From contig NZ_NRSW01000001.1 of assembly GCF_002288635.1 (NCBI RefSeq), positions 1,457,522 through 1,521,521 on the forward strand: a stretch of 64,000 nucleotides of DNA, in the 5' to 3' direction. A program made the translations under genes and the position numbers. Positions 3,129 through 28,296 of the stretch are shown here, piece after piece. This DNA comes from Mucilaginibacter sp. MD40. GTDB taxonomy: Bacteria; Bacteroidota; Bacteroidia; Sphingobacteriales; Sphingobacteriaceae. The notes below the pieces were generated by a model, which was not told where the DNA came from, did not search any database, and saw only the letters and a list, made by a program, of their open reading frames with translations. The first letter of the stretch is position 1, and every line of letters begins with the position of its first letter.

Positions 3129-4628
3129 TTATTTATAATTCTGGTCAAATCTTACTTTACGGAAATTCTGTCCTTTAAATAATTTGTCACCCTGCACATG
3201 CAGGTAGGCTTCCACTTTATAGTTGTTCCTTTCGCCGCCGGTAATCAAGCCAACAAATTGTTCCGGCCGTACCTGTTTATGTACGCTCAGGCTGATGCTG
3301 TCCGTGCGGGAGAAGTTTTCTGCAACGGTAATTGTACTGGATGGCTCGATAAATTCTGCTTCACCGATCAGGTCAGATGCAGCTTTGTTCGTTTCCACGT
3401 CGGAATTGGCATGAAAAATTTTTGTATTGAGTGTACCCAAAAAACTGTGCACACGGTCGCGTGCTTTATCGCCACCAAGGGCGGCAAAATACTGTGGGAT
3501 ATTTTGAGCGATATAGACGGTAGCGACACGACTACTTCTTGACGTGTATTGGAACTCTGCATCCTTTTCATGTAGGAAGGTATAGGCCTCATCAGCGAAA
3601 AGAAAAACGGGTCGGTCATTCTCTTTGACGTTGCGTTTCTCCATTTCCCGTTGCCAAAGTACCTTGTACAAAATCTGGCAATCTCTGCCTACGTTATGGT
3701 AGAGTTTGGTCGGAATATTGAGCAGTAATATCTTGCCGTCCAAACTTGACCTCGGATTGAAGTCAGCTTTCTGTTTGCAAAACATAGAATAAAAAGGCTC
3801 CCTTAGTAAAGAATAAAGCAGGCCAGTAAAGCTGAACTCAACGATGGAACGTGTCTTGCTGGCAAGGTTCTTAAAAGTTTCCGTAAAGAACTGATCCAGC
3901 AGTTTAAGGGGCTTGTATTCCGGCACCATTTGTTCTGCATGATGGTCAAAGGTTCCCTCAAATTCGATGCGCGACTTTTCTGCCCAATGTACCTTTGAAT
4001 ACCATTTGTCAACATCTTTCCTTACACGCGATCTTATTTTACCGAAGGCTTTATAAAATGCCTTCTTTTGTAAGTCTTCGGGTTTTGGTGCCGGTTTCTC
4101 AATGTGAGGAGCCGTTTGTACAATTTCATAGAGTGTTTGCACATCTACTTTGTTGTACGCCATCAGCGCCAGATCAATAGCATTTGCTATCAGTTGGTCT
4201 AAGGCCTGGCTCCAGAAAGGGTCACTGTTATTTTTGCCATTATTCCTTTCCGCTCCAGCATTGATAACAACTTTTAATATCTCAAGCAAGTTGCCGGTGA
4301 GGGCATCGCCAGAATTACTAGCAGACAGATAGCTCATGAAGTCAAAGCTGTATTCGCCGCCTGGTTCCAAAATAAGCAGGTCGTCTGAACGACCTGCCAG
4401 CTTGCAGTACTCTACCCATTGGTCTTTTTCATCGGGTTTTACAGTAAGTACCAAACCACCAAATCCGGCATTAAGCATCTTCAACGCCCACAGCCTGCCT
4501 GATGCGCTTGTCTTCCCTGCACCAATGCTGCCGAAAATGGCGGTGCCTTCTACCAAATTGCGTAGGGTGTAAGGCGACTGATTCTCGCCGCCAAAAAAGA
4601 TCATGGGTTGTTCAAGGTCGTAATTCAT
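3129..4628 (-). CDS. type IV coupling protein ATPase (TraD/TraG/VirD4-like), anchorless
   Basis: The 499-aa protein carries Walker A GSIGAGKT (33-40), Walker B VFLFADEA (341-348) and the downstream RVATVYIAQN stretch typical of the FtsK/VirD4 ATPase fold. Coupling proteins deliver the relaxase-DNA complex to the secretion channel and pump DNA. The Walker A begins only 33 residues in, and no hydrophobic segment precedes it, so the usual two N-terminal membrane helices are absent. The membrane protein at 2332-3102 follows 26 bases downstream and may replace them. Together with the MobF relaxase this makes a mobilisation set. No mating-pair-formation genes are visible, so the element is either mobilisable only or has those genes to the left. 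Confidence 0.87.
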   Translation of the reverse strand: MNYDLEQPMIFFGGENQSPYTLRNLVEGTAIFGSIGAGKTSASGRLWALKMLNAGFGGLVLTVKPDEKDQWVEYCKLAGRSDDLLILEPGGEYSFDFMSYLSASNSGDALTGNLLEILKVVINAGAERNNGKNNSDPFWSQALDQLIANAIDLALMAYNKVDVQTLYEIVQTAPHIEKPAPKPEDLQKKAFYKAFGKIRSRVRKDVDKWYSKVHWAEKSRIEFEGTFDHHAEQMVPEYKPLKLLDQFFTETFKNLASKTRSIVEFSFTGLLYSLLREPFYSMFCKQKADFNPRSSLDGKILLLNIPTKLYHNVGRDCQILYKVLWQREMEKRNVKENDRPVFLFADEAYTFLHEKDAEFQYTSRSSRVATVYIAQNIPQYFAALGGDKARDRVHSFLGTLNTKIFHANSDVETNKAASDLIGEAEFIEPSSTITVAENFSRTDSISLSVHKQVRPEQFVGLITGGERNNYKVEAYLHVQGDKLFKGQNFRKVRFDQNYK

Positions 4629-7658: not shown

Positions 7659-10649
7659 ATGACTATAGGAATTGCGCACTTTACTGATATTCACTTTACA
7701 ATTAAAACCGATATTGATAATAAGATTGCTTCTTGTTTAGGCGCTTTAAAAAATGATTTTTCTGGTGTTAAAGCGATCTATTTTGTATTAAGTGGAGACA
7801 TCGCTTACTCAGGTAAAAAGCAAGAGTATGATCTTGCCAAAGTGTTTTTCAATAAAATAATTCAATTATTAAAAAAGCAATATCCAGACACAGGACTTAA
7901 GGTAATTATTGTGCCGGGAAATCACGATTGCAATTTTTCGGACTATGATTCACAGTTACGAAAGAATTCAATTGAAAACATTTCTTACGATTATTTGGGA
8001 GACGATAACAGCGTAATCGATACCTGCCTATCTGTTCAAGCAGATTTCTGGGATTTTTATAAAATTTATAATGATTTGCCGTCAGACAAATTATTTTATA
8101 AGGTATCGGATATTGTCGATGGTCGTACAATATGCTTTCATTGCATAAATACCAGTTGGATGTCCCAAATATACGAGCAACCTGGCAAACTGTTTTTTCC
8201 CGCAAGAAAATATGATTCTTATGATAATGAGGACTGTTATTTAAACATTGGAGTCTGGCACCACCCTTATAATTGGTTCAATCCTGGAAGCATTGAAAAT
8301 AATAAAAAAGAGCTTGAACATCTCACAGAGCGAATTGCGTCTGTTCACTTGATAGGTCATGAACACGTTAATGAATTTTATACCATCAAGAACAATATTA
8401 CCACTGACAAAATAAATATTGTATCAGGTAAAGTTTTTAATGAGGATAGCCTCCCTAATGAATCTGGATTTGAAACAATTATTGTAGACATTGACAAAAG
8501 AGAAGGGGGATTAAAAACATATTCTTGGGATAAAGATATCTACAAATCATCTTACAACAAAAAACTCAATTTCTTTAAGGACTCGCATAAAAAATTTGAA
8601 TTCAATTCAGATTTTATTAAAAACTTAGATGAAATTAAAATTCCCTTAACTATCGGGGAACGTAGAAAAGTCAAGCTAAGTGATATTTTTATATTTCCCC
8701 ATCTTGATACAATTAATTCTGACACGAAAATCCTTGAAAATTATCAAGATTCAGAAAGTATCATTGATAACAAGTTCAGCCATTGTGTCATTGCAGGTGA
8801 CGACCAAATAGGTAAAAGTAGCCTTTTAAGCATGATTTACCTCAATAAATTAAAAAATGGAGTTTTTCCGTTGATGATAACAGGAAAGGATATAAAGGAG
8901 CTTGACTTTAATAAGATTTTAAAAAGAGCTTTTAGGCGGCAGTATATTAATGGTGATGAGAATTTTGATGCCTATCAACAATTAGACAAGTCTAAAAAGA
9001 TATTGCTAGTTGATGACTACCATCATTGTAAATTTCCAGCAGCTGTTGTCTATAAAGTGTTGAAAGAGTTAATGCCGAAATTTGAATTTGTATTATTATC
9101 TATCGATTCTGCTCATAGCTTATTACCTGTTTTGCAAACCGAATTTAAAGATGTTGGATTTTATAAAATTAAGCCGTTCGGCTATTCCAAACGAAATAGT
9201 TTGATAGAGAGGTACAACTACCTAAAGAGAAGCAGCTATCATGATATTGATGACATAGATATACTGAAAGAATCTTTTGACAAAGTAGGGGCAGTTTTAG
9301 GAGATAAATTAATTCCGTCATATCCGATTTTCATACTTTCCATCTTACAGTCATTAGAATACAATTCTTTAAGACAGAATGAAACTTCGTTTGGATATTG
9401 CTATCAAACCTTAATCCATTTCTCATTGCATAAAGCAAAAGTTAAAAGTGATGATATCGATACATACTTCAATTTTCTTACAGAATTAGCTTTTGCCTTT
9501 GTTGATAGTGAAAAGGAAGTTTTCAGGGAGGAAGAATTACTTGAATTCTTTGCAAGCTATAAACGGCGGTTTATAACACCTTCGTACAACCAGGTGATTG
9601 AGACCTTAAAACAGTCAAAAATTTTGGTGTTTGAAGATGACGAAATTTGTTTCGGATATGACTATATTCTTTATTATTTGTCAGCAAAGAAGATTTCAGA
9701 TATTATTCATACTGAAAAAGGGAAGAGTATTGTAACTAAATTGTTTAAAGATTTACAAGAAGAAAAGAATGGGAATATTTTAGTTTTTGTAACACACCAT
9801 TCCAAAGATATATCATTTATCGAAGATTCTCTTCTCACTTCAATGGATATATTATCTGATTATACACCGATTACATTAGCGCTGAACGATCCATTTTATA
9901 TTCATATAAAAGCTATAGCAGAGGATGTAAGTAAAGAAATTTTGGAGATTAATAGAAATCCCAGAGAAGAAAGAAAAAAACACCTTCAATCTCTAGATGA
10001 AAGTGAGTCACGAGTTGAAAAGAGATCACAATCCTCCGAAAGCTACAATGCAATAACACTGCCATTTAAAAAATCATTTCGCTCGATTGAAATAATTGGT
10101 CAAATTGTAAGAAATAGAAAAGGTTCGCTAGAGATTTCGCAATTAAAAGACATGATCAAAGAGGTGTATGATACCGGTTTTAGAACGATTAGTTACAGTA
10201 GCGAATTGCTTATTAGTGCCAAAAATCAAATCATTCTTATGTTGAATGAAGATGATATTGCTGAGACAAGTAAGAAAGAAATAGAAAAAGGAGTTACTGA
10301 TTTTGTAATGATGTCAAGTTTTGAATCATGTATAGGAATTTTTAGCAAGATAATGCAATCAATGGGTTTAAAGGATTTAAAAGATTTATTTAACGAAGTT
10401 GCAATCGATATAGATACCCCAGCTGCTAAGTTGGTGTCCTTTGGTATTAATTCTTACTACGGAAGCATATCAGAAAACGAGCTAAGAACTTTGGTCACTG
10501 ATTTAAAAGGTAATGCAGTGGCAATGAAAATGTTAAGAGGAAGAGTGCAAGCTTATGTTTACAGCAAAAATCTTGATATCAGAACCAAACAGAAATTTGC
10601 TAATCTATTAGGAATGACAATATCGCCAAATAGAGTGAACAAGTCTTAG
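7659..10649 (+). CDS. metallophosphoesterase-STAND NTPase fusion, candidate anti-phage defence protein
   Basis: The 996-aa protein starts with a calcineurin-like phosphoesterase domain (about 1-290) carrying all the metal-site motifs: D10-I-H12, GD (46-47), GNHD (87-90), WHH (200-202) and GHEH (233-236). A STAND/NACHT-type NTPase follows, with Walker A GDDQIGKS (380-387) and Walker B ILLVDDYHH (448-456). The C-terminal half (about 560-996) is helical, without clear repeats, and probably senses a trigger. STAND proteins are signal-activated switches. Nuclease or phosphoesterase effectors fused to them are a known design in phage-defence proteins. The gene stands alone between an HTH pair and the tRNA and is A+T-rich like other island cargo. 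Domain calls are firm; defence is inference. Confidence 0.88.
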   Translation: MTIGIAHFTDIHFTIKTDIDNKIASCLGALKNDFSGVKAIYFVLSGDIAYSGKKQEYDLAKVFFNKIIQLLKKQYPDTGLKVIIVPGNHDCNFSDYDSQLRKNSIENISYDYLGDDNSVIDTCLSVQADFWDFYKIYNDLPSDKLFYKVSDIVDGRTICFHCINTSWMSQIYEQPGKLFFPARKYDSYDNEDCYLNIGVWHHPYNWFNPGSIENNKKELEHLTERIASVHLIGHEHVNEFYTIKNNITTDKINIVSGKVFNEDSLPNESGFETIIVDIDKREGGLKTYSWDKDIYKSSYNKKLNFFKDSHKKFEFNSDFIKNLDEIKIPLTIGERRKVKLSDIFIFPHLDTINSDTKILENYQDSESIIDNKFSHCVIAGDDQIGKSSLLSMIYLNKLKNGVFPLMITGKDIKELDFNKILKRAFRRQYINGDENFDAYQQLDKSKKILLVDDYHHCKFPAAVVYKVLKELMPKFEFVLLSIDSAHSLLPVLQTEFKDVGFYKIKPFGYSKRNSLIERYNYLKRSSYHDIDDIDILKESFDKVGAVLGDKLIPSYPIFILSILQSLEYNSLRQNETSFGYCYQTLIHFSLHKAKVKSDDIDTYFNFLTELAFAFVDSEKEVFREEELLEFFASYKRRFITPSYNQVIETLKQSKILVFEDDEICFGYDYILYYLSAKKISDIIHTEKGKSIVTKLFKDLQEEKNGNILVFVTHHSKDISFIEDSLLTSMDILSDYTPITLALNDPFYIHIKAIAEDVSKEILEINRNPREERKKHLQSLDESESRVEKRSQSSESYNAITLPFKKSFRSIEIIGQIVRNRKGSLEISQLKDMIKEVYDTGFRTISYSSELLISAKNQIILMLNEDDIAETSKKEIEKGVTDFVMMSSFESCIGIFSKIMQSMGLKDLKDLFNEVAIDIDTPAAKLVSFGINSYYGSISENELRTLVTDLKGNAVAMKMLRGRVQAYVYSKNLDIRTKQKFANLLGMTISPNRVNKS

Positions 10650-13910: not shown

Positions 13911-14001
13911 TGTGTCACCTTTGATACGGTAAGAATTATTGGTAGAAGTTTGTTTATTAGTAAACCATCCTCAACCTATAGACAAAAAGCCCGATTTAAG
14001 A

Positions 14002-14068: not shown

Positions 14069-14123
14069 AAATCTTGTTCAAATATAAACGATGGTTTAAT
14101 AGTGAACAAAAAGGACAAAAGCG

Positions 14124-14777
14124 ATGAAGCAGGCTATCGCATATTATCGAGTGTCAACAAGCAGGCAGGGTAAAAGCGGTTTAGGGCTGGAGGCGCAGCA
14201 AGATGCGGTAGAGCAGTATTGCTCGGTCAATGATTATAATCTGATCAAACAGGTGATCGAAGTTCAATCAACCAGAAAGTATCGCGCAGGATTATTCAAT
14301 GCCCTTGCACTTTGCCGGAAGCGGCAAGCGACGCTAATTGTTGCAAAGCTTGACAGGCTGGGGCGTGACGTAGAACAAATCGCCGGGATAGTGAAATCAA
14401 AGGTAGAGGTAAAGGTAGTGGACAATCCGCACGCCAACCGTTTCACCATTCATATCCTGGCCGCAGTAGCAGAAGAACAACGTCAGCGCATCAGTGAGAA
14501 CACTAAATCAGCACTGCTGGCCGCTAAAAGGCGTGGCGTTGAATTGGGCAAGAACAGTAAAGTGTTAGCCGTTGCCAATAGACGGGCGGCTGAAAACTTC
14601 GCAGACAAGCTGTCTCCGATAATCAGTCGCTTCCATGACAGGGGAATTGTTACAACCCGCGCCGTTTGCAAAGAACTAAATAAAAGAAAAGTGCCAACCT
14701 TCCGCATGGTCGGAAAATGGCACCCAAGTACGGTTCATACATTATTGAACCGCCTTAACAGGAACAAGAATAAGTAA
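14124..14777 (+). CDS. serine recombinase (resolvase/invertase family)
   Basis: The 217-aa protein has the family signature AYYRVSTSRQGKSGLGLEAQ, with the nucleophile Ser11 and Arg9, and the KLDRLGRD motif (75-82). The catalytic domain spans about 1-140 and a C-terminal HTH about 165-215. The length matches small resolvases rather than large integrases. It catalyses site-specific DNA inversion or resolution. Repeated TCAACT motifs lie upstream. The peptide gene begins only 19 bases after its stop, so the two may share a transcript. Confidence 0.93.
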   Translation: MKQAIAYYRVSTSRQGKSGLGLEAQQDAVEQYCSVNDYNLIKQVIEVQSTRKYRAGLFNALALCRKRQATLIVAKLDRLGRDVEQIAGIVKSKVEVKVVDNPHANRFTIHILAAVAEEQRQRISENTKSALLAAKRRGVELGKNSKVLAVANRRAAENFADKLSPIISRFHDRGIVTTRAVCKELNKRKVPTFRMVGKWHPSTVHTLLNRLNRNKNK

Positions 14778-14796
14778 CAACATAAATAATCAGATC

Positions 14797-15000
14797 ATGC
14801 TAAATACAATTCAACAAGACATTCTATTCGATGACCGTTCGGTAATGGCACTACTACACGGCAAAATTAATTCATTTACTAGCGGTAATGCACATTACAA
14901 CGATTGCACCAACAATTTTAATGATTGTACGAATAATGTGTACGCAAGTAAAATCGTTGATGAAAGTCACAACGAAGTGTCGTTTAAGAAAGATAATTAG
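14797..15000 (+). CDS. putative RiPP precursor peptide with tandem NDCTNN repeat
   Basis: The 67-aa peptide has a hydrophobic/charged leader-like front (MLNTIQQDILFDDRSVMALL) and a polar C-terminal part containing YNDCTNN followed directly by FNDCTNN (residues 34-47). Four of the six shared codons differ synonymously between the two units, so the peptide repeat, not the DNA, appears conserved. The gene sits eight bases before a radical SAM/SPASM enzyme, as precursors of radical-SAM-modified peptides do. Each aromatic-Asn-Asp-Cys-Thr-Asn-Asn unit offers Cys for a thioether or an aromatic ring for a cyclophane. No known precursor family is recognised. Translation is likely; function is inferred. 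Confidence 0.72.
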   Translation: MLNTIQQDILFDDRSVMALLHGKINSFTSGNAHYNDCTNNFNDCTNNVYASKIVDESHNEVSFKKDN

Positions 15001-15008
15001 ATTTTCTT

Positions 15009-16367
15009 ATGAATGTTACAGGAGTGATGTGTTCAGTGCCTCATAAAGCGCCTGACCTGCTATTGACCACATTAGACGAAAATTACGCCTATGCGGTTAA
15101 CTGTTCATTCCCAAATTCTTTCCGGTTGCTCAACCGACGCCAGTTTGAGATACTATCAGCTATTGATGGCATTGATGATATAGAAACCTTGGCGGAGAAG
15201 TTAGGAATACCTCCAGCTGTATTAGGCGAGTTTCTATCGATGCTGCAAAAAACAGAATTGATTGCCTTTGATGAGCACAGTTTTTCAAAGCCTGTTAAGC
15301 CCGCTTCTCCTGAAAAGCTCAATTTTTGGATTCACACGACTAATGCCTGTAACCTGGGATGCAGCTATTGTTATATCCAAACATTAAATACCGGCAAAGG
15401 TATGAGCGATGCGGTAAGGCGGCAGTTACTGCATAAGCTAATTGAAGCTGCAAAGCAGAAGGGCATCCGCCAAATTCGGCTTCGTCTGGCCGGAGGTGAA
15501 CCGCTTGGACAGTTCAGTGTCTGGAAACAGTTTATTCCTGAAGCAAAGAAGTCTTTAGCAGAAGCCGGGTGCAACCTCGAGGCGGGATTTATAACTAACC
15601 TGACATTGCTAACCGACGATATGATTGCGTTCGCAAAAGAATATGACGTTGGCTTTGGCGTATCGCTGGACGGGATAGAAGCAACACATGATGCCACGCG
15701 CAGTTTCCGTTCCGGTTGCGGTTCATTTAGTATTGTTGATGCCAATCTGCGCAAACTGATTGATGCGGAAATATCGGTATCAGTAAATACGGTGGTAACT
15801 AATTTGAACTTGACGGGACTGCCGGATCTCACCCGTTATTTGGTCGGGCTTGACATTCCCTTTCGCTTTTCAATAGTAAAAGGTGATAACATCCATGCAG
15901 AACTCCTGGACGAATACCTGGCGGCATCCTATGCCATCATGGAGGAGGCTGTTGGTAAAGGCTGGCTGTTCTCTAAGCGCTTCCGGTTCTGTGACCTTAA
16001 ACCAAATGAATTAGGGTTTCAAACCTGTGCTTCGGGTTTTTCAGGTGGTGCCATTTATGTTGACGGTACTTTTAAATACTGCCATGTGCAATTCGGGGAT
16101 GATGGTGCACCAAGTACATCTATTTTCAACGAGGAACTTAGCCTTGTTGATATGATCGCAAGTGGGGAGCATCATGAAGATGATAGATCGGAAGATTGCC
16201 AAAAATGCCGCTACCGCTACGTCTGCACCAGCGGTTGCCCTGTTTATCGGGTTAATGGGAAAGACCCACAATGTAGTTTGTATCACCGGTTTATTCCTAA
16301 GTATTTTGAGTTACAGGCAAAGCAAAGTTTATATTTATTGCACTTAGATTCGCAACGGATCACTTAG
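15009..16367 (+). CDS. radical SAM/SPASM peptide maturase
   Basis: The 452-aa protein has an N-terminal region (about 30-90) like a winged-helix peptide-recognition element, then the radical SAM motif C114-N-L-G-C118-S-Y-C121 and AGGEP (161-165). The C-terminal SPASM domain has C340, C358, C397, C400, C406, C410 and C422 for auxiliary iron-sulfur clusters. Such enzymes form thioether or carbon-carbon links on ribosomal peptides. The adjacent NDCTNN peptide is the obvious substrate. No exporter or peptidase gene is nearby, so export must use other host functions or the product stays inside. A maturase of a quinohemoprotein-type subunit is a less likely alternative. Confidence 0.9.
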   Translation: MNVTGVMCSVPHKAPDLLLTTLDENYAYAVNCSFPNSFRLLNRRQFEILSAIDGIDDIETLAEKLGIPPAVLGEFLSMLQKTELIAFDEHSFSKPVKPASPEKLNFWIHTTNACNLGCSYCYIQTLNTGKGMSDAVRRQLLHKLIEAAKQKGIRQIRLRLAGGEPLGQFSVWKQFIPEAKKSLAEAGCNLEAGFITNLTLLTDDMIAFAKEYDVGFGVSLDGIEATHDATRSFRSGCGSFSIVDANLRKLIDAEISVSVNTVVTNLNLTGLPDLTRYLVGLDIPFRFSIVKGDNIHAELLDEYLAASYAIMEEAVGKGWLFSKRFRFCDLKPNELGFQTCASGFSGGAIYVDGTFKYCHVQFGDDGAPSTSIFNEELSLVDMIASGEHHEDDRSEDCQKCRYRYVCTSGCPVYRVNGKDPQCSLYHRFIPKYFELQAKQSLYLLHLDSQRIT

Positions 16368-17394: not shown

Positions 17395-17504
17395 TCAAAG
17401 TTACCTGAGTAATTTATCGCACAACTTAGACTGTGTCTTTTATCAAATTTCACTTTAACGGAATAAAAGCACTACTAATTCCTTATCATAACACTAAATC
17501 CCTA

Positions 17505-20500
17505 ATGAAATCCAATTACTTGCTGTGCCGTGCGCTGTTGTGCATGGTGTTTGCATCACTATTTCCCAAGGCAAGCTTTGCGCAAAGCGCATCAGAAAGC
17601 CTGGAATACAATAAGGTTTCTATCGCTTCTCCTACGGCAGGAGCAATTACGAAGTTCGTGGATATCCCTGTCAGCTTACATACCGGTATCCCGCAGATCA
17701 GCATCCCGCTTTATACCGTAAAGGACGGTAGTTTATCTGTACCCATCTCGATGAGCTACCATGCGTCCGGTTTGAAAGTGGGTGAACCCGCCAGTTGGGT
17801 AGGCGCCGGATGGTCGCTTAACGCGGGTGGGGTGATCACCCGTTCAGTCAGGGGAACACCTGATGAAAAAGGAACTGTAAATAATTTTCAGAAAACGGGT
17901 TATTACAGCAATTACGGTTATCGCAGCTATGTTTTCATTAAAGACCCAGGTGGCCAGGATCCACAGGATATAAGATCTGATAGTATGTTAGTGAACCAAT
18001 ACGAAAAGTTCAGTAACGGAACATATGATTCGGAACCCGATGTTTTCTTTTTTAATGTAGGCGGATACAGCGGCAAGTTTTACTTTAATGATGACCGCAC
18101 GCCGATGCTCTTACCGGAACAGGACATCAAAATAGAGGTTAATTATACCTACGGGTCTTCTGAAAGTATCCAGGGTTTTACGCTGACAACACCGGATGGT
18201 ACCAAATACTATTTTGGGGCGACACCGTCAACCACAGACACGGATCCTGTTGAGTACTCCAAGATCATGACTGATCAGAACGGGATCGGTTGGGATAAAG
18301 TATTATCCAGCTGGTATCTCAACAGGATTGTTTCTGCTGATGGTAACAATTCAATCAATTTTGCTTATCGTCCTGTAGTCTATAGTTATTACATGGCCTC
18401 CACGAGTACGTCAAACAACAGTGGAGCTTACGTAGGTTACAAATTAATACGAAACTATATACACGGTGTTGAGCTAAGTTCGATAGCTTCTTCAAATGCC
18501 CAAGTTAACTTTGTACAAGCAGCACAACCGCGTCAAGATCTTTCAGGATCAAATCTTACAGGGGTGGAACAAGTGAACGGAGTTAATAACCCTTCAACTG
18601 CCGCTTATCCCTTAGGTCGTATTGATGTTCTACAAAAAAATGTTTCTCAGCCTCTTAAAAGTTATAAGTTTGATTACGGTTATTTTGAAGATCCCAATGG
18701 CCCGGTCGCTTTTACTTTAAGCGTATCCGTTACCGATAAAAAGCGCCTCAAATTATTGAGTATACAGGAGCAGGGCGCTTCGGGAACGCTGAACCCGCCT
18801 TATAAGTTTGACTATTTTGATGAACTTGTACCGCGCAGGTTGTCGTTTGGTCAAGACCACTGGGGATTTATCAATGGGGTAACCAATAACGGTGACACTT
18901 TTATAGGAACATTTTATAAAACCTATAATACTTCAAGCCCTACAACAGTAACCGGTGCCGATCGCGACCCGCATTGGCCGGCCATGCGCGGAGGTACTTT
19001 AAAGAAGATCACTTTTCCTACCGGTGGATATAATCTGTACGATTTTGAACCCAACGATACTTACAATTCGCAGATTATAGCCAGTAATGGAGAAAGGACA
19101 CCTGTAGGCAGCAAGAGTGCCGGTTACGATGGTTGTGATTGCCCTAAATCCGATACCTTACATATTAACATGGGAACTTATAATTATGTGATCCAATTAG
19201 TGAACAAACCTGAAGGTGGTTCCGCAGAGTTGGACGTATTTGATAGTAACTGGGCGCCCCTTGATCATTTAAGCGCGCTGAAGAACGAGACCAAAGAGAT
19301 CATTCGCAATTATGCGACTGGCCTATACCATATCCGCGTGACCAAGTACAACTCTTATGGTGGTAATGGGGCGGATGTAAGGGTTTACCAGATGGCAGGA
19401 ACCATCGTTAATACCAACGCAATGGTAGGTGGCCTTCGCATCAAGACCATTACGCAGAGCAGCGCGAACGGCAACCCGGACATGGTGACCTCTTATGACT
19501 ATACCGACAGTAGCAGTGGTCAGCAATTATCGACGGGGGTAGTATTCGGAAAGCCGACCATCGCGCAACCAGTCCGAAACCAGATCTACGCGGAATCAAT
19601 CAGGCCAGTGATTAACAATGTCTACAATGATCCGATATATCCCAATGGCTGTCCAGTATCACCTGGATCTGGATTACAGTACCTGACTACCCCTGCCAGC
19701 ATACGACCAATGGGCAGTACCCAAGGATCGCATATTGGTTACCGAAAAGTCACCACACGTCAGCAGGGGAACGGCTATACCGTGTCAATGTTCAATATGG
19801 ATGGCGACTATCTGATCGACCGTAAAGACATTGTTAACCGGACGATTATCACTTCCCCGAATACCTGTACGATGGACATTCCTAATTTCCCGTCCGCGCC
19901 GGAGCCTAATTTCTTTAAGCGCGGACAGTTGGAATACGAAGCCAAGTACAGTGAGGCCGGTATACTTCTCCAGGATATGTCTTACACTAATCAATACCAG
20001 GAAAACCTGCTGACGACGCCAGCTATGGTTGGCACAACAGTTAACGGTGTAAATAACAATACACCTATGTATACCTGGTATGATCAAAAGACCGGCAGGA
20101 AAATAACCGAGGTAGTTCATCGCAGAACTTATAACAGCAGCGGGGTGAGTGATGTGATGGAACAATTGTTTTATGATAATGCTTATCATCACCAACTTAC
20201 CAGAAAAGTTACTGTGAATTCGGCAGGCGAAACATTGGAAACGCGTTACCGCTACGTACCTGATTACACCATCACAGCGGTTGATGGCCTGGACACCAAG
20301 ATACCGGCCCTTGCCTCCGACCAGGACGCGTTGACCACTAATTATAAAGCAAATTGGATCCAATGCGGAACCGATCACCGATGCAGGCGAAATCTTTGGT
20401 TAGACTATGATTTGGCGCTGTGTCATAAGCGTATGACCTTCATCGATTACCGTATTGCGAATTTCACCGGGCCGAACGCGGCGTACAGAGTGAACTTGCA

Positions 20501-21767
20501 AAATGCCTTAACGAACGCATCTGCGGCGCTAAAACCGTTGATCGACATGCGGATACAAAACAACTTTGCACTGGTGGAAACGGTGAACTTGAAGAACGGC
20601 AACGTGATGTCAGCTGTCTACAATACTTATGAATACAAACCAGCCTCACAAAACAAGGTCTATCTGTCAAAAGTGAGCAAGACGGATTACCTGTTACCAC
20701 CGTCCAGTTTTACCTATACTCAAACCGGAACGGATAATACCTCGCTTGTCAAAGACGCCGCGTATAATGAAAAAGCAGCATTCGAATATAACACGGGCAA
20801 CATTTCGCAGGTTAAATTGACGGATAATGTACCCTCTGCTTACCGGTGGGGCTACAATAATCAATATCCTGTACTGGCTGCAAAAAATGCGGCCGCTAGC
20901 GACATCTTTTTTGAGGGTTTTGAAGAAGGCGCAGGTAACGGTACAATAAATGATAGTAAGACTGGTCACTACAGTTACACTGGTAATTATACCAAAGTAT
21001 TATCCGGCCTTACGAATGGTGCCTATGTGTTAAGCTATTACCAGAAAATTAATAGTGCATGGAAATGGATGAACCAGACCATGACGGTAAGCACGGGAAG
21101 TTATACGATCAATCTGAACGCACAAATAGATGATGTTCGTTTTGCTCCTGTCGGTTCGATGCTAACCAGTTATACCTATGATCCGGAGATCGGCATGACC
21201 AGTACGATGGATGTCAATGGGCTGGCTAATTACTATGACTACGATGAGTTTCAGCGATTGAATACGATCCGGGACAATAACAGGAACTTGCTAAAGAAAT
21301 ACTATTATAACTACAGCAATGGAACGGCAAACGACGCGCCGCCGCTGCCATATGCTTTGATCGAGCAAACGTCTTTTACAAGTGGTAACGGCGGACAGAA
21401 CTACGCAACGTACGCAATCAGATTGTATACCGATAGTACCTATACAACATTGTTTACTGCAACTCAAAACATCACGGTTAAGTACAGGGTGAGTACAAGT
21501 ACGTCTGTCAATGGCGGAGCGCCAACAGGTTCCGGTGCAAGTTATTCTGCAGTTATCAATTCGGGATCCAGTTCAGTCAACCTTGGTTCATTTGAGGCAG
21601 GATGTGGTACAGCGCCAGCTTTGGCGAAGCAATCCACCGCAGAAGCTTCGGCGAAACAAGAGTCCACCTCCAACGTCGCTACGGGTGGCGGAGGTTCTAC
21701 AACCTGCGTAAATAACATTTTGTATGTCCTTATTGGCACTGGCTATAGGGGAGGTGTCGTGCAATAG
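17505..21767 (+). CDS. large secreted Rhs-family (YD-repeat) protein without a toxin end
   Basis: About 1420 aa from ATG 17,505. A longer frame starts at 17,433, but the first 24 residues would precede the signal peptide (MKSNYLLCRALLCMVFASLF), so 17,505 is preferred. The body has YD-repeat style segments such as YDYTDSSSG, TYDPEIGMTSTMD and YDEFQRLNTIRDNNRN. The start (VSLHTGIPQISIPLYTVKDG) is typical of Bacteroidota Rhs partners with a following DUF6443/Rhs-core gene. It ends without an Rhs-core consensus. It probably forms or fills the shell with the product at 22,003-25,566. Confidence 0.85.
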   Translation: MKSNYLLCRALLCMVFASLFPKASFAQSASESLEYNKVSIASPTAGAITKFVDIPVSLHTGIPQISIPLYTVKDGSLSVPISMSYHASGLKVGEPASWVGAGWSLNAGGVITRSVRGTPDEKGTVNNFQKTGYYSNYGYRSYVFIKDPGGQDPQDIRSDSMLVNQYEKFSNGTYDSEPDVFFFNVGGYSGKFYFNDDRTPMLLPEQDIKIEVNYTYGSSESIQGFTLTTPDGTKYYFGATPSTTDTDPVEYSKIMTDQNGIGWDKVLSSWYLNRIVSADGNNSINFAYRPVVYSYYMASTSTSNNSGAYVGYKLIRNYIHGVELSSIASSNAQVNFVQAAQPRQDLSGSNLTGVEQVNGVNNPSTAAYPLGRIDVLQKNVSQPLKSYKFDYGYFEDPNGPVAFTLSVSVTDKKRLKLLSIQEQGASGTLNPPYKFDYFDELVPRRLSFGQDHWGFINGVTNNGDTFIGTFYKTYNTSSPTTVTGADRDPHWPAMRGGTLKKITFPTGGYNLYDFEPNDTYNSQIIASNGERTPVGSKSAGYDGCDCPKSDTLHINMGTYNYVIQLVNKPEGGSAELDVFDSNWAPLDHLSALKNETKEIIRNYATGLYHIRVTKYNSYGGNGADVRVYQMAGTIVNTNAMVGGLRIKTITQSSANGNPDMVTSYDYTDSSSGQQLSTGVVFGKPTIAQPVRNQIYAESIRPVINNVYNDPIYPNGCPVSPGSGLQYLTTPASIRPMGSTQGSHIGYRKVTTRQQGNGYTVSMFNMDGDYLIDRKDIVNRTIITSPNTCTMDIPNFPSAPEPNFFKRGQLEYEAKYSEAGILLQDMSYTNQYQENLLTTPAMVGTTVNGVNNNTPMYTWYDQKTGRKITEVVHRRTYNSSGVSDVMEQLFYDNAYHHQLTRKVTVNSAGETLETRYRYVPDYTITAVDGLDTKIPALASDQDALTTNYKANWIQCGTDHRCRRNLWLDYDLALCHKRMTFIDYRIANFTGPNAAYRVNLQNALTNASAALKPLIDMRIQNNFALVETVNLKNGNVMSAVYNTYEYKPASQNKVYLSKVSKTDYLLPPSSFTYTQTGTDNTSLVKDAAYNEKAAFEYNTGNISQVKLTDNVPSAYRWGYNNQYPVLAAKNAAASDIFFEGFEEGAGNGTINDSKTGHYSYTGNYTKVLSGLTNGAYVLSYYQKINSAWKWMNQTMTVSTGSYTINLNAQIDDVRFAPVGSMLTSYTYDPEIGMTSTMDVNGLANYYDYDEFQRLNTIRDNNRNLLKKYYYNYSNGTANDAPPLPYALIEQTSFTSGNGGQNYATYAIRLYTDSTYTTLFTATQNITVKYRVSTSTSVNGGAPTGSGASYSAVINSGSSSVNLGSFEAGCGTAPALAKQSTAEASAKQESTSNVATGGGGSTTCVNNILYVLIGTGYRGGVVQ

Positions 21768-21821
21768 GTCACGATGAGGTTATACAAATTCAAATAAAAC
21801 GGTAACATAAAAATATACAAA

Positions 21822-21938
21822 ATGCTCAAAAGGATTTTAGCTTTCAACCTGATCTGCCTGGCCTTAGTGGTAAAGGCGCAATACAGGACAAATGTTGTTG
21901 GCGATAACAGTGTGACTTATGTCTGTATGGCAAATTAA
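21822..21938 (+). CDS. 38-aa secreted peptide between the Rhs genes
   Basis: The short frame encodes a signal-peptide-like start (MLKRILAFNLICLALVVKAQ) and only 18 further residues ending VTYVCMAN. It lies 54 bases after the first Rhs gene and 64 before the second. It may be the remnant of a longer secreted protein or a genuine small cell-surface peptide. The clean signal sequence supports translation; function is unknown. Confidence 0.45.
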   Translation: MLKRILAFNLICLALVVKAQYRTNVVGDNSVTYVCMAN

Positions 21939-22002
21939 GCCTAACCGATACTGATTCTGAATTAAGCATATTACCCGAAACCAATATCGTTCCACTTATC
22001 AC

Positions 22003-25000
22003 ATGAAGATCAGATTAAATAAGATGCGCAAACTGCTGATTTCAGCTTGTTTTGTTGTTATTTCTACATCTGTTTACAGCCAGGTGCAACTTAGCTCTGC
22101 AAATACCTCCGGTACGTATACAGCACCCTTAAGTATTACATTATTGCCGGGCTTTTCAACGGCTGCCGGACAGACTTTCAGCGCTCTGATCATTCCGGGG
22201 CTGAATTGTGCGCCATTGACGGTACAACCGAGTGTAAACCGAAACTTTGTAATGGAGTATACGGCTCGAGACAGCAATATTACCAATCCGGACGCGACAA
22301 CACTGACCAACTGTGCAATGCTGCGTACGGTGCAATATTTTGACGGCCTGGGAAGACCGCTACAAACGGTACAGATACGCGGAAGCAAGAATGGTGATCA
22401 GGATGTGGTACAACCCATGCTGTATGACCAGTATGGCAGGCAGCCCTTACAATATCTGCCGTATGTAACCGCCTCATCCGCTGCAGGTGCCTTTCATATC
22501 GAGGCATTAAATCCTCAGGGAAATTACAACACCAGCGGCCAGAAGCAGTTCTATCTTCCGGTAACCGGTCAGAATTATAAGGATATGACCACGCCATATG
22601 CAGCGAGCGTATACGAGGCCTCTCCGCTTAACCGGCTCACACAACAGGGCGCTCCCGGGGATGCCTGGCAGCCGGGCAACCGGACAGCGACCAGTGGCCG
22701 AACGGTGATATCGGAATGGGATGTGAATAATGCTGACCCAATAACAACTATTGCGACAACACGTTATGCCGCCCTTTGGAAAGCGACGGTGACCTCCACG
22801 CAAGCGATCAGCTTAAGCAGGGCGTCAGGTACAGCAGGGGTGTATGATGCCGGGCAATTAACAGTAAGTATCATTAAGGATGAGAACTGGTTGTCGGGAA
22901 GGCTCAATTCAGTAGAGGAGTTCAAAGATAAAGAAGGGCGTGTAGTACTTAAAAGGACATTTGTAGATAACTCCGGAACCACGAAAGCCTTGTCAACCTA
23001 TTATGTATACGATGACAGGGGATTGCTGGCCTTTGTATTGCCACCGAAGGCCGATGCGGATAACGCAACCAGTTTAAACCAGACCCAACTGGATGAATGG
23101 TGTTACCAATACCGATACGACGAACGCGGCAGGATTACGCAAAAAAAGTTGCCGGGTAAGGGCTGGGAATTTTTCATTTATAACAGGCTCAACCAGGTCA
23201 TTGCTACGCAGGATGCTGTCCAGCGAAGTAAGGCCCCACAAGAGTGGACTGTGACCAAATACGATGCCTTAGCCAGAGTGGCAATGCTCGCTATTTGGCA
23301 GCATCCATCAAGTACTACCGACGTAGATTACCGTGCTAGCCTACAAACCCAGGCTACAGGTACGGCAGCGCAATGGGAAACACCTGTAAACACTGGTACG
23401 GGATATACTGCGCTTAGCTGGCCGGCTACAACGAGCATTACGCCTCTACAGATCAACTATTACGATAATTATACGCAGATACCCGGCGGTATACCTGCAG
23501 GGTATGCGCCAGCGAGCTACATCACATTGGTCAATGGAAAGTTGACCAGCACCAAAACAAATGTATTGGGCACATCGGTCATGCTGCAATCAGTGATTTA
23601 TTATGATGATATGGGGCGGGTAACCAACACCTATAGCCAGCACTACTATAACGGAACCACCAGCGTGAACAATTACGACGAGATCCGTACCGGCTATGCG
23701 TTTTCAGGCGATGTTCAAAAGACGGTGCGTACGCATTACATCAACGGCTCGGGAAATGTGAAACAAACGGGCGTGGTAGTCACCAATACCTATACCTATG
23801 ATCATATCGGCCGTAAACTGGACACTAAGCAGAGAACAGGTTCGCCAACTTCCACTGAGGTACTGATCGCTCGCAACGAGTATAATGATATCGGGCAGTT
23901 GTATAAAAAGTATGTGCATTCGGAAAATGACGGAAGTACATTTTTGCAAACCACCTCATATGCTTACAACGAACGCGGGTGGTTGAAGAAGATCAATGAT
24001 CCGGCAAGTGCTCCGCCGTCAGATAACAGCAAGCTGTTCAGCATGGAGTTGAAATACAACGATGGCAGCAACGCACAATTCAATGGGAATATTGCTAACC
24101 AGGTATTTGTCAATACGGGGACAAGCACCGAAGCTACGCAGACCTTCAGTTACCAATATGACGCGCTCAACAGGCTGACCAGCGGTATTTCGACAGGTGC
24201 TTCTGTAGCGGCCAATAATATGTCGGAAAACAATATCACATACGACGAATTGGGTAATATCAGGACATTGACCCGTGATGGCAATGTTTATGGCTATAGC
24301 TATGTACCGAACGGTACGGTAGAAAGCAGCAGGCTGAAGTCGGTTAGCGGCTTAACCACCGGCGATTATCAGTATGATGTAAACGGGAATATGACGACGG
24401 ATGCCCGCAACGGTACTGCTTTGCAATATAACTTCCTTAACTTACCAACAAACGTTACCAAAACGGGCGTCAACCTGAACTATGTGTATGATGCAGACGG
24501 ACAAAAAATACGCAAAGTGAGCAATGTAACGGGTACCACGGATTATATCGGAGGCATTGTTTACAACTCGATCAGTAATGTTTACCGGATCGACTATATC
24601 CAAACCGAAGAAGGCCGTGCGGTTAACAACAACGACGGAACGTACCGATACCAGTATGACCTGAAAGATCAGCTGGGAAACATACGTTTGACCCTGCAGA
24701 AAAACAGCACGACAGGTAAGGCTGACAGGATACAGTCGGATAATTATTACGCATTTGGTTTAAGAAAATCGATCAGCCCTATACCTTCATCACCAAATAA
24801 GTATCTTTATAACGGAAAAGAGTTACAGGAAGAAACAGGTGACTATGATTATGGCGCGAGGCACTATGACCCGGTAATTACAAGGTGGGTAGCTATGGAT
24901 CCGATGGCGGAGAAATACCGTAGGTGGACGCCTTACAACTACGTAATGAGTAATCCCATAAGATTTATTGACCCAGATGGAATGGACGCTTATACCTCTA

Positions 25001-25566
25001 AAGCCGAAGGGGCAGACGTAGATAAGATTCGTAGGGAACTAGAGCAATGGGTAAGAAATGCAGGGCGTGGTGCAGATGGCTTAACAAACAACGAATGGAT
25101 TGCAGCCAATAAATTTGGTAACTTTGGGGATGAGATAATCAATGACGTCGGGGCTGGCATATTTATGGCTCCTAATAATGGGAATGATACAACTAAAAAC
25201 AGCGGCAGATCAAAACTTTCAAAAAACGAGGAATCATCTGATTACTATACACGTCGAATCCCTGGTAAAGGCAACACGTTTAGGGGGGGCAAAAAAAATG
25301 ATCGTGACAATGATATGAAGAAGTATCCTGATGACTTCAGAAAATGGTATCATAATGAGACGAATAAAAAGCATTATAAATTGCCTAATCAACCCGATCC
25401 GGATTTAAGTGAACCTTATCAAGATTGGTTGGATTTAGGTAAACCCAAATCATTTACTATTCCTCATATCAATGCTCCGAAAATATCACCTGTCGCAGTT
25501 GGTACAGGGATTGGTATCGGCAGTATAATTGCCAGTTATTGGTGGTTAGGCATTTTGGTACTGTAG
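22003..25566 (+). CDS. DUF6443/Rhs-core polymorphic toxin
   Basis: The 1187-aa protein has a signal peptide (residues 8-26), a DUF6443-like front (TVQYFDGLGRPLQTVQI), many YD repeats, and the Rhs-associated core ending YDYGARHYDP...NPIRFIDPDGMD at about residue 995. The 192 residues after the core are unlike the rest: a helical RRELEQWVRN part, a Lys/Asn/Asp-rich stretch, a FRKWYHNETNKKHYK segment followed by YQDWLDLGKP, and a hydrophobic end. This variable tail is the expected toxin. A putative immunity gene follows 51 bases later. The core call is secure; the toxin activity is unknown. Confidence 0.88.
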   Translation: MKIRLNKMRKLLISACFVVISTSVYSQVQLSSANTSGTYTAPLSITLLPGFSTAAGQTFSALIIPGLNCAPLTVQPSVNRNFVMEYTARDSNITNPDATTLTNCAMLRTVQYFDGLGRPLQTVQIRGSKNGDQDVVQPMLYDQYGRQPLQYLPYVTASSAAGAFHIEALNPQGNYNTSGQKQFYLPVTGQNYKDMTTPYAASVYEASPLNRLTQQGAPGDAWQPGNRTATSGRTVISEWDVNNADPITTIATTRYAALWKATVTSTQAISLSRASGTAGVYDAGQLTVSIIKDENWLSGRLNSVEEFKDKEGRVVLKRTFVDNSGTTKALSTYYVYDDRGLLAFVLPPKADADNATSLNQTQLDEWCYQYRYDERGRITQKKLPGKGWEFFIYNRLNQVIATQDAVQRSKAPQEWTVTKYDALARVAMLAIWQHPSSTTDVDYRASLQTQATGTAAQWETPVNTGTGYTALSWPATTSITPLQINYYDNYTQIPGGIPAGYAPASYITLVNGKLTSTKTNVLGTSVMLQSVIYYDDMGRVTNTYSQHYYNGTTSVNNYDEIRTGYAFSGDVQKTVRTHYINGSGNVKQTGVVVTNTYTYDHIGRKLDTKQRTGSPTSTEVLIARNEYNDIGQLYKKYVHSENDGSTFLQTTSYAYNERGWLKKINDPASAPPSDNSKLFSMELKYNDGSNAQFNGNIANQVFVNTGTSTEATQTFSYQYDALNRLTSGISTGASVAANNMSENNITYDELGNIRTLTRDGNVYGYSYVPNGTVESSRLKSVSGLTTGDYQYDVNGNMTTDARNGTALQYNFLNLPTNVTKTGVNLNYVYDADGQKIRKVSNVTGTTDYIGGIVYNSISNVYRIDYIQTEEGRAVNNNDGTYRYQYDLKDQLGNIRLTLQKNSTTGKADRIQSDNYYAFGLRKSISPIPSSPNKYLYNGKELQEETGDYDYGARHYDPVITRWVAMDPMAEKYRRWTPYNYVMSNPIRFIDPDGMDAYTSKAEGADVDKIRRELEQWVRNAGRGADGLTNNEWIAANKFGNFGDEIINDVGAGIFMAPNNGNDTTKNSGRSKLSKNEESSDYYTRRIPGKGNTFRGGKKNDRDNDMKKYPDDFRKWYHNETNKKHYKLPNQPDPDLSEPYQDWLDLGKPKSFTIPHINAPKISPVAVGTGIGIGSIIASYWWLGILVL

Positions 25567-26118: not shown

Positions 26119-26466
26119 GTGCTATTATTAAGCCGCGATATGCGCGTAATCGGCGTTTATCATGCAGCAAGTGGCTCAACATCCGGTGTTGTGGTAGATA
26201 CGAAATTGATACTTGTTTCAGCATTGAAAACGAATGCAAACAGCATCATCATGGCGCATAACCATCCTTCAGGAAATCTTAAACCAAGTCCTCAAGATGC
26301 CGAGCAAACACATAAAATGAAAATTGCCTGCAAAGCGTTAGATATAGAAATGGCAGACCATCTCATAATTACTAACGATGGTTATTACTCTTTTGGAGAT
26401 GGTTTAAGCCATGAAAAGAAAAACATTAATGGCTCTATTTATTTTGAGTGCCAGCCGCCTTTTTAA
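26119..26466 (+). pseudogene. N-terminally truncated RadC-like JAB domain protein
   Basis: The frame contains the JAB/MPN metal motif MAHNHPSGNLKPSPQD with a downstream VVVDTKLI/ADHLIIT pattern typical of RadC proteins common on Bacteroidota mobile elements. Homologous reading extends a few codons upstream (WDQNCIDLTEEFKVLLLSR, from about 26,077), but an in-frame TGA near 26,050 cuts it off. About 40-50 N-terminal residues of a normal RadC-like protein are therefore missing. GTG 26,119 would be the only start for a residual product. It is probably a remnant. Confidence 0.7.
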
Positions 26467-26564: not shown

Positions 26565-26990
26565 ATGCATGGCTTTAAACCCAATTTTGATCCTCCGCAA
26601 CGAGCAGGCCACAAGCAGGGGCGTTTTGTTAAAGTTGTAAACCCGCTTGGATGTCTGGAATATGCAGATGGCGCTAAGATTGACCTGCATAAAGAATTAA
26701 CGGGCAATAAGCACACCGTAGAATTGATGCCCGTACACACCAATATCATGCGACCATCCGGCTTGCATCATGGTGGTATGATTATAGTCGATAAATCGTT
26801 AAAGCCAAAGCGTGGAAATATCGTTGTGGTCAGGTATAACGATGCGATAGTTATTCGCAGAATAGAAAGGTCGCTTACACATTGGGCGCTTGTTGCAGAC
26901 AACCCGAGGGAAGAAAAACTTTTACTTGGCGAGTTTGCCGACTATCAATTGATTGGCGTTGTAACTCATGCTATTAAACCGTGCAGATAG
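26565..26990 (+). CDS. UmuD/LexA-like S24 fold protein lacking catalytic residues
   Basis: The 141-aa protein has the S24 core SGLHHGGMIIVDKSLKPKRG followed by NIVVVRYNDAIVIRRI and ends like UmuD. Aligned by eye with UmuD, the catalytic Ser of the DSM motif falls on Ile61 (NIM) and the catalytic Lys on Arg98 (VIRRI). Self-cleavage would then be impossible. No umuC-like polymerase follows. A good Shine-Dalgarno (AAAAGGAG) lies just before ATG 26,565, unusual in this genome. It may be a repressor or dominant-negative SOS factor of the element. Confidence 0.8.
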   Translation: MHGFKPNFDPPQRAGHKQGRFVKVVNPLGCLEYADGAKIDLHKELTGNKHTVELMPVHTNIMRPSGLHHGGMIIVDKSLKPKRGNIVVVRYNDAIVIRRIERSLTHWALVADNPREEKLLLGEFADYQLIGVVTHAIKPCR

Positions 26991-27021: not shown

Positions 27022-28296
27022 TTAAAAATCAATTACCGCTTCCAAGGCTTCATCTGCCTTTCTGTGCGAGAAATTTGACTGATAATGCATAGTTGTGAGA
27101 ATACTTTCATGCCGATACATCTTTTGTAATACTTTTGGATGAATGTCTTTTTCTTCAGCGCGTTGCGCAAAGGCATGACGCGCTTTATGCGGTGAAGCAT
27201 TTTTATTGATCGAAAGTAGCTTCATAATATCGACCATGTGACGGCCGATTAAGCGTGTTACCGAGTTTATCCTTCTCCGCAAGGCATAGCGGTCATTTAA
27301 ATTATCTAGCTTCTTTAGGAACGGAAACACAAGATCATGAGCTTGTTCATCCATTTTATATTCATCTATAATTGCCGCGACAGCAGCAGGTATCGGCAAT
27401 GATCCAGGCTCTCCGTTTTTCGACATTGTGTAATAGAACCGACCATTTTGAAAGTCAGACCATTTTAGCAACAACGCATCAGTAATACGCATTCCTGCAA
27501 AATAAAAGCATGTAAGCCAAATATTGCGGCTATGATGCAAGTGCTTTTGATCATCTGGAAACTTGTATTGCTTGAGCAGATTGATTTCGTCACTAGTTAA
27601 ACCAATTTTTTCCGTTTTGCCGAATTTGATCATAATTTTTTCCCTGCCGCCGAATGGATAATTGTCCTTACTTGCTAATCCGGCAGTTATGGCGCGATTA
27701 AAAAGCGTACGGATTACCAATAAGTGGTTGGTAACTGAGCGGTCACTTAGCGGCTGTTGATCTTTCCTGTTGCGATTGTGCTGTGTTTTTAAAAATACTG
27801 TGTATTTGCGCAGGAACTCAACGTTAATTTCAAGGAACGTTACATTGTGTCCTGCATATTCGTAAAAGCGATTCAGACGGCTCTTATCGGTTTTATGAAC
27901 ATCGTAATTGCCCAGCGCATATTGTTCTCGCAAATGGTTATCCGCGACATTTTTAAACAAGGGCTGTTCCGGAACAGGCGGCGGCAGGGTCTGTAAAGGT
28001 TTCGGCCTGACTGACTTAACAATGTCTTCCGCCGTGTAGTGTTTTTTATTTGTTTCGAATTCTAGTATTTTCTCATTTACTTCCGAAAGCTTTTTTGTAA
28101 GAAAATTAGTCAGACGCATATGATGCGGATGAACTTTTTTTACTTGTTGTTTGCTGGCATCCCAATGATCGCGGGAAGCAAGCGCGTTCCCTTCAAATAA
28201 ATAGGCAGGAATGCCATTTTGAGAAACTTTGATGCCGATAGGAAATTTTTTGTTTTTGTCTGGGCGACTCCAGGTAACGATTTTTGCGGTTGCCAT
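27022..28296 (-). CDS. tyrosine recombinase/integrase of the element
   Basis: The 424-aa protein has an N-terminal arm-binding region (about 1-90), a SAM-like core-binding domain (about 112-220), and a catalytic domain with Arg270 (AGMRITDALLLKW), His370 and Arg373 (HKARHAFAQRA), His396 and nucleophile Tyr405 (MHYQ). All catalytic residues are present. It catalyses insertion and excision at the tRNA-Met att site. Its gene starts 185 bases inside the right repeat, and TTGTTAACGGT repeats lie in that gap. It is convergent with the UmuD-like gene. Confidence 0.95.
   Translation of the reverse strand: MATAKIVTWSRPDKNKKFPIGIKVSQNGIPAYLFEGNALASRDHWDASKQQVKKVHPHHMRLTNFLTKKLSEVNEKILEFETNKKHYTAEDIVKSVRPKPLQTLPPPVPEQPLFKNVADNHLREQYALGNYDVHKTDKSRLNRFYEYAGHNVTFLEINVEFLRKYTVFLKTQHNRNRKDQQPLSDRSVTNHLLVIRTLFNRAITAGLASKDNYPFGGREKIMIKFGKTEKIGLTSDEINLLKQYKFPDDQKHLHHSRNIWLTCFYFAGMRITDALLLKWSDFQNGRFYYTMSKNGEPGSLPIPAAVAAIIDEYKMDEQAHDLVFPFLKKLDNLNDRYALRRRINSVTRLIGRHMVDIMKLLSINKNASPHKARHAFAQRAEEKDIHPKVLQKMYRHESILTTMHYQSNFSHRKADEALEAVIDF

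Follow-up and report, generated by a model that had tools for sequence, protein, structure and literature searches.

A compact RiPP operon in Mucilaginibacter sp. MD40 appears to be phase-variable, with a small serine recombinase as its first gene, a promoter split between two recombination sites just upstream, and a leader-guided radical SAM/SPASM maturase that would modify the Asp-Cys units of the precursor peptide. Judging from sequence, we give this reading as a whole, switch and modification together, a probability of roughly 0.6. The switch itself, understood as a self-limiting DNA inversion that would yield the peptide in pulses, and as a portable module of plasmid-resolvase stock that elsewhere would drive surface lipoproteins, has in our estimate about an even chance of being correct. 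RiPP genes are usually viewed as controlled by growth phase or signals, and a literature search, with most subscription journals outside it, returned neither a RiPP under an invertible promoter nor a characterised Asp-Cys radical SAM product. Phase variation through a promoter split between two crossover sites therefore appears to be new within the literature searched, a proposal well supported by the sequence comparisons presented below. Here the window denotes the whole 64,000-nucleotide stretch of contig NZ_NRSW01000001.1 that was analysed, and all coordinates refer to it.

An initial annotation, made from the letters of the window, had described a compact RiPP-like locus, and its account of the peptide and enzyme genes holds. 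The precursor ORF (14797..15000, plus strand, 67 aa) consists of a leader with DILFDD, the core YNDCTNNFNDCTNN and a variable tail, and the tandem NDCTNN peptide is indeed present in it as AHYNDCTNNFNDCTNNVY. The maturase ORF (15009..16367, plus strand, 452 aa), a radical SAM/SPASM enzyme with an RRE-like N-terminal domain, begins eight bases past the precursor stop codon, as had been stated. The two repeats are encoded by TAC AAC GAT TGC ACC AAC AAT and TTT AAT GAT TGT ACG AAT AAT, and the count of four synonymous differences among six shared codons is accurate. The selection on the peptide that had been deduced from this count is upheld by comparison with the closest relative (locus L003, genome G101), from which leader and core differ by no amino-acid change: the first 14 codons of the precursor carry 0 non-synonymous and 3 synonymous changes and the 14 core codons 0 and 1, against 17 and 9 in the aligned linker and tail codons.

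Among relatives, the precursor lies directly before the maturase in all 42 close-family loci checked (43 peptides), so the reading survives the test that its author had proposed, a search for maturase homologues lacking such a peptide nearby. The leader motif LF[DN][DE] is found in 42 of the 43 peptides, with IFDD in the remaining one, and every peptide contains Asp-Cys, repeated at most six times (L053). Conservation of the repeat held for Asp-Cys and not for the tandem NDCTNN unit, which is a local form found in the window and G101, with variants in L023 and L025; Cys-Asp-Cys takes its place in 33 of 43 peptides. A pattern match in L062 was dropped from this set as it is not a precursor, and L056 (cut by a contig end) and L018 (a fragment) were left out. 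These data support reading the locus as a compact RiPP-type gene set whose core is under selection and whose cognate radical SAM/SPASM maturase has an RRE-like front.

Maturase matches occur in 13 of 301 genomes of the host's family, or in 11 when the distant G200 and G287 (28-29% identity) are set aside; the match in G025 consists of fragments. The gene set belongs to soil and freshwater Bacteroidota. A scan of species genomes gave 43 maturase loci, four of them (L059-L062) distant at 25-26%, in Mucilaginibacter, Pedobacter, Arcicella, Dyadobacter, Spirosoma, Runella, Emticicia, Larkinella, Fibrella, Siphonobacter, Algoriphagus, Flavobacterium and others. The four distant relatives are found in KSB1, Chloroflexota and unassigned MAGs, with a protein of about 1000 aa just upstream (AAA/TPR in L060, the one scanned); in L059-L061, peptides with Asp/Asn-Cys-Ala-Cys precede the enzyme. 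A viral origin was considered and rejected, as the viral contigs (79 loci kept) held no family member, the best match being 30% over part of the maturase. Among the listed matches to phage and plasmid records, none reached 60% identity.

The initial annotation recognised no described family with this core. The arrangement is, however, in print as 'Cluster 59' (Kostenko et al. 2022), a recombinase, a radical SAM enzyme and a peptide with a conserved Asp-Cys motif in up to six repeats, for which the section describing it offers no chemistry (PMC9062424). In the window the same three genes stand side by side, and the motif and its maximum of six recur in the peptides described here. The RiPP is therefore a real member of a recorded, uncharacterised family, and of the first reading as a whole the compact RiPP locus and cognate maturase stand, while the novelty of the core and the aromatic cyclophane discussed below do not. 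In the same part of the text, Cluster 59 is treated as three genes, with no mention of paired sites or a split promoter, of the membrane protein C1 described below, of recombinase-less members or of relatives with lipoprotein cargo (PMC9062424).

The maturase carries a CX3CX2C motif and seven C-terminal cysteines, all ten invariant in 37 homologues, and we take the spacing of the latter seven to be the SPASM pattern. At its front the predicted model has three strands and three helices in the manner of an RRE, a fold that agrees with the recognition-domain-like front noted initially; model confidence is low around residues 114-127 and in parts of the SPASM region. The search against known families that had been suggested as a check placed the maturase only in the general Radical_SAM and Fer4_12 domains, and beyond these no curated Pfam or NCBIfam family was found for precursor, maturase or C1. 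The best full-length profile matches of the maturase, both below cut-off, are to QhpD (TIGR03906; 118 bits, cut-off 453) and to the PapB-type ranthipeptide model NF047865 (110 bits, cut-off 340), which likewise represent radical SAM/SPASM enzymes. QhpD reportedly performs Cys-to-Asp/Glu thioether chemistry. PapB is described as doing the same and as accepting directly adjacent Cys-Asp, if incompletely, in the part of the source consulted (PMC9413430). The nearest solved relatives are CteB, ChlB, anSME, SkfB and TigE, the best being CteB (5wgg, 5why; profile E 6e-21, Foldseek E 6e-12), a thioether-forming SCIFF maturase that differs from the enzyme here in its precursor and shares only about 17% identity with it in the structural alignment; the maturase does not reach the cut-off of the SCIFF model.

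We propose that the RRE-like front of the maturase binds the LFDD leader and that the enzyme then modifies the Asp-Cys units of the core, linking Cys sulfur to Asp carbon to give a ranthipeptide-like thioether with a shift of about -2 Da per Asp-Cys unit. Such a thioether is the most likely product given the conserved residues and the enzyme type. We rank it first, with moderate odds, because the core conserves no reactive residues other than Asp and Cys and because the profile relative PapB links Cys to Asp. The likeness to PapB has a limit, in that enzymes of that type act on Cys-X3-Asp motifs, whereas the cores here have adjacent Asp-Cys and lack that spacing. We doubt, but take seriously, a modification that forms no crosslink, such as a change confined to Asp or to Cys, or metal binding by Cys-Asp-Cys; the frequent Cys-Asp-Cys motif, the failure to find any characterised member of this radical SAM family and the incomplete action of PapB on adjacent residues, as given in the consulted part of its report (PMC9413430), would all suit it, but the nearest profiles and structures include the thioether formers QhpD, PapB and CteB. 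The aromatic cyclophane raised in the initial annotation, in which Tyr or Phe would be joined to Asp or a neighbouring residue, ranks last and is very improbable. The peptide of the window and six others do have a Tyr or Phe two residues before a core Asp-Cys, and cyclophane-forming models match the maturase weakly (YhhB, 80 bits against a cut-off of 445). Yet these are only seven of 43 peptides (an eighth match, in L045, lies in the leader and is not counted), 15 of the 43 have no aromatic residue within three before or four after any Asp-Cys, and the maturase reaches the cut-off of none of the cyclophane RiPP models GrrM, FxsB and YhhB. Since the aromatic residues are not conserved, the cyclophane was rejected as a general chemistry.

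The description of the locus as a peptide and an enzyme overlooked three further features: the membrane protein C1, the recombinase and the paired sites of the latter. The recombinase gene (14124..14777, plus strand, 217 aa; PF00239, 2.8e-24) is the first of the operon, and its product is the proposed promoter invertase. All nine copies at 70% identity or more in the 301 family genomes adjoin the maturase, the next homologues falling to 46-47%, and so do 22 of 25 copies at 61% or more in 222 Spirosomaceae-type genomes (around Runella). By tblastn, 24 of the 39 close-family contig loci that could be judged have a recombinase ahead of the precursor; these counts were used for recombinase presence, the inclusion of L031 in the recombinase ORF cluster being a spurious join. 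The canonical resolvase motifs are kept in the recombinases read, including YRVST, which we take to be the catalytic-serine motif. In eight Spirosoma-type loci (L037, L045, L095, L097, L098, L100, L103 and L118) the recombinase frame is open into the precursor, at about 284-310 aa, and recombinase and precursor there may therefore form a single chain or arise through internal initiation. Where the recombinase is missing, a divergent gene often occupies the position of the switch (L031, L033, L035, L036, L041, L042, L048 and L055); those of L033 and L035, the cluster C9 members that were read, encode Xre-type HTH proteins, suggesting another control mode for the same RiPP.

In a tree of 46 sequences, the recombinases of switch loci form one clade of 34 (100/100). 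Within it, L088, L096 and L101 have the recombinase and two sites followed by a predicted lipoprotein (lipobox judged by eye) in place of the RiPP genes, with a DUF5122 propeller, no clear domain, or Kelch/TIG, and the tree requires three separate changes to account for this cargo. Surface lipoproteins are typical phase-variable cargo. Sister recombinases (50-54% identity) adjoin genes that are presumably ParA-like, by their P-loop, in 4 of 9 examined, which suggests that the recombinase descends from plasmid resolvases.

Conserved DNA upstream of the recombinase consists of two blocks, 38-bp palindromes of one type with consensus TTTGTTCAnGAGTAAACGATCGTTTACTCnTGAACAAA. In the window, the recombinase-distal site A occupies 13949..13986 (centre AT, 13967-13968) and the proximal site B 14073..14110 (centre AT, 14091-14092), a centre-to-centre distance of 124 bp; across copies the distance is 114-127 bp, and 123-127 bp in 31 of 33. 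A matrix scan found exactly two palindromes in 23 of 24 recombinase loci (one in L038; a third, weak match at +1957 in L029). Within the stretches covered, the 16 recombinase-less loci had none. A pattern search of the host's own genome gave 66 matches against 52 for the reversed control, with nothing standing out beyond the two known sites.

The symmetry of site B is broken in its left half only, where 31 of 33 copies carry CAAANNTA, the complement of the Bacteroidota -7 box TANNTTTG, an element absent from the other three half-sites (0/33 each). The NN of the box varies (TA 22, GG 4, AG 3, GA 1, GT 1), and in L083 and L093 CGAATATA replaces it. The -33 TTG is present at the outer left end of site A in 33/33 copies, against 18, 3 and 12 of 33 in the other half-sites. 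In the window the box is TATATTTG on the minus strand (14079..14086; CAAATATA on the plus strand) and points away from the operon, while the outer left end of site A (13949-13952) reads TTTG, which would supply the -33 half of the ON promoter; inverted in silico, the segment would bring the box to face the operon, 20 nt after TTTG. Bacteroidales invertible promoters are described as -33 TTTG / -7 TANNTTTGY and mostly OFF (PMC8748976), and we applied the consensus given in the consulted parts of three sources (PMC8748976, PMC4747536, PMC9723704). A strict promoter into the operon was found in 0 of 33 copies as sequenced and in 32 after in-silico inversion; it lies at the new A junction in 31 of these and elsewhere in one (L083), and L093 has none. 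The two elements come together only when the segment is turned about the centres, and then at the usual spacing, 20 nt in most copies and 19 in L088. Shuffled sequences gave a strict promoter in 53/9600 cases (0.55%), and random 124-bp inversions in the same stretch in 738/9600 (7.7%). These counts are not independent, because the copies are related. L105 (the same locus as L038) was left out of the two-site statistics since it has only one site. The gene set, its conservation, the paired sites and the split promoter halves can be read from the DNA itself.

We infer from these features an inversion and a pulse of expression. The recombinase would bind A and B upstream of its own gene and invert the segment between them. 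As sequenced, the putative OFF state, site B has its -7 box facing away, and the operon would have no consensus promoter leading into it; inversion would join TTTG of site A to the box of site B, 20 nt apart, creating an ON promoter that reads into recombinase, precursor and maturase. The operon that the recombinase would switch on begins with its own gene, so ON should be short-lived and OFF the stable state. Support for strand exchange comes from two loci, one case each. L101, placed by the tree inside the clade with AT/AT centres, has GT and AC as centres, which are complementary, as exchange between inverted sites demands; it alone has site orientation marked by the centres, the other palindromes being symmetric. 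In L105, the left half of the single site fits A-left of its relative L093 at 15 of 18 positions (against 9) and the right half fits B-right at 14 (against 10), so that it looks like a deletion-like remnant joining A-left to B-right. The three relatives in which recombinase and sites precede a lipoprotein likewise speak for recombination.

Several observations temper this proposal. The symmetric AT centres by themselves give no preference for inversion over deletion, a loop of 124 bp is short, which counts against the switch, and most copies would have A after the -7 box, where the published consensus has Y. As sequenced, 13 of 33 copies contain a strict promoter reading leftward, aimed at C1 in the window, and in some of them the box may therefore be used for transcription in that direction. 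All 35 assembled copies (one assembly per species) are in the putative OFF orientation; none of the 25 copies at 61% or more from the 222 Spirosomaceae-type genomes is ON, and 390 genomes of the wider order contained no recombinase copy outside genomes already covered, and none ON. In the part of the survey consulted, 92 of 96 Bacteroidota switch cases are not predominantly ON (PMC8748976), and uniform OFF fits both a self-limiting ON state with this published bias and a switch that does not flip. As a positive control, the recombinase-less relatives, which are necessarily transcribed, have a strict promoter in only 1 of 16, so its absence as sequenced proves little.

Two other roles for the recombinase and its sites were weighed, and we consider both unlikely. 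If it belonged to a res-type system for multimer resolution or for mobility of the cassette, the promoter pattern would be incidental. Its sister recombinases beside ParA-like genes, as in plasmid resolvases, would accord with this, as would three genomes (G051, G131 and G044) that resemble the window in the cassette only, with different flanks, and the position of the window's cassette in a mobile-looking island with a coupling protein and a tyrosine integrase. However, the cassette is not framed by sites, no further strong one lying within up to 8 kb to its left or right; A and B share one geometry, unlike a crossover site with accessory sites; a strong second site is missing from the sister-clade recombinases; and the -7 box in one half-site and the TTG at another are left unexplained.

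The recombinase might instead act as a repressor, binding A and B as operators and looping the DNA with no strand exchange, to which we assign a similarly small chance. The tightly kept spacing, including a 114-bp variant in L066 that is about one helical turn shorter, and the single orientation of all copies are what such looping would predict. The complementary centres of L101 and the deletion-like site of L105 fit strand exchange and not binding alone, and the resolvase motifs, YRVST among them, are kept in the recombinases read.

The switch resembles known Bacteroidales invertible promoters (Mpi capsule, IP-ARG) in its local recombinase, inverted repeats, -33 TTTG and -7 box, and Mpi is itself described as a serine recombinase that inverts promoters (PMC4747536). 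It would differ from them, as far as the consulted parts of their descriptions extend, in that each recombination site itself holds one half of the promoter, the operon that is switched on starts with the invertase gene, and the cargo is a RiPP. The design, a split promoter with the invertase in its own operon, is compact, and an unstable ON state would be expected from it. If the proposal is true, the RiPP would be made only by the few cells with a flipped promoter, which would explain products undetected in culture and make locking the switch ON a direct route to finding them, and the 'recombinase' of Cluster 59 would gain a concrete job.

The remaining component, the membrane-anchored protein C1 (13422..13910, minus strand, 162 aa), may be read as a fourth component and dedicated membrane partner, which it would add to the Cluster 59 pathway. 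Its ORF cluster is represented in 39 of 44 fetched loci (absent from L053 and the distant L059-L062), divergently upstream in 7 (window, other Mucilaginibacter, Arcicella) and directly downstream of the maturase in 32, and it is found at E <= 1.1e-26 in 11/11 family genomes with the maturase. Outside maturase loci, the 301 genomes held only fragments or weak matches (G192, G219, G115 and a 64-aa piece in G044). C1 belongs to no Pfam or NCBIfam family; its predicted model (pLDDT 93.6) has an N-terminal helix (2-27) and a beta-sandwich without a decisive fold match, the best being Foldseek E 1e-4 (TM 0.36-0.41) and, among VIA's listed families, Z 7.9 (ApaG), within the range commonly seen. Perhaps it serves in immunity or anchoring, which is a guess. 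The earlier remark that no exporter or protease is nearby holds as far as examined, but it passed over C1 and the recombinase, which adjoin the pair.

An additional C1-family ORF stands elsewhere in the locus in 10 loci. An AbiEi/AbiEii-type toxin-antitoxin pair occurs in the fetched flanks of 12 of 44 loci (L030, L032, L037, L039, L041, L042, L043, L046, L047, L048, L057 and L058), and in several of them it comes right behind C1, with a second C1 copy beyond it. The mobile-looking island of the window spans 3129-28296, with a coupling-protein-like gene (3129-4628), RHS proteins (17433-25566), a RadC-like gene (26119-26466), an S24 peptidase-like gene (26565-26990) and a tyrosine integrase (27022-28296). 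Also in the window, 7659-10649 encodes a metallophosphoesterase/STAND-type protein that matches the candidate defence model PDC-S60.
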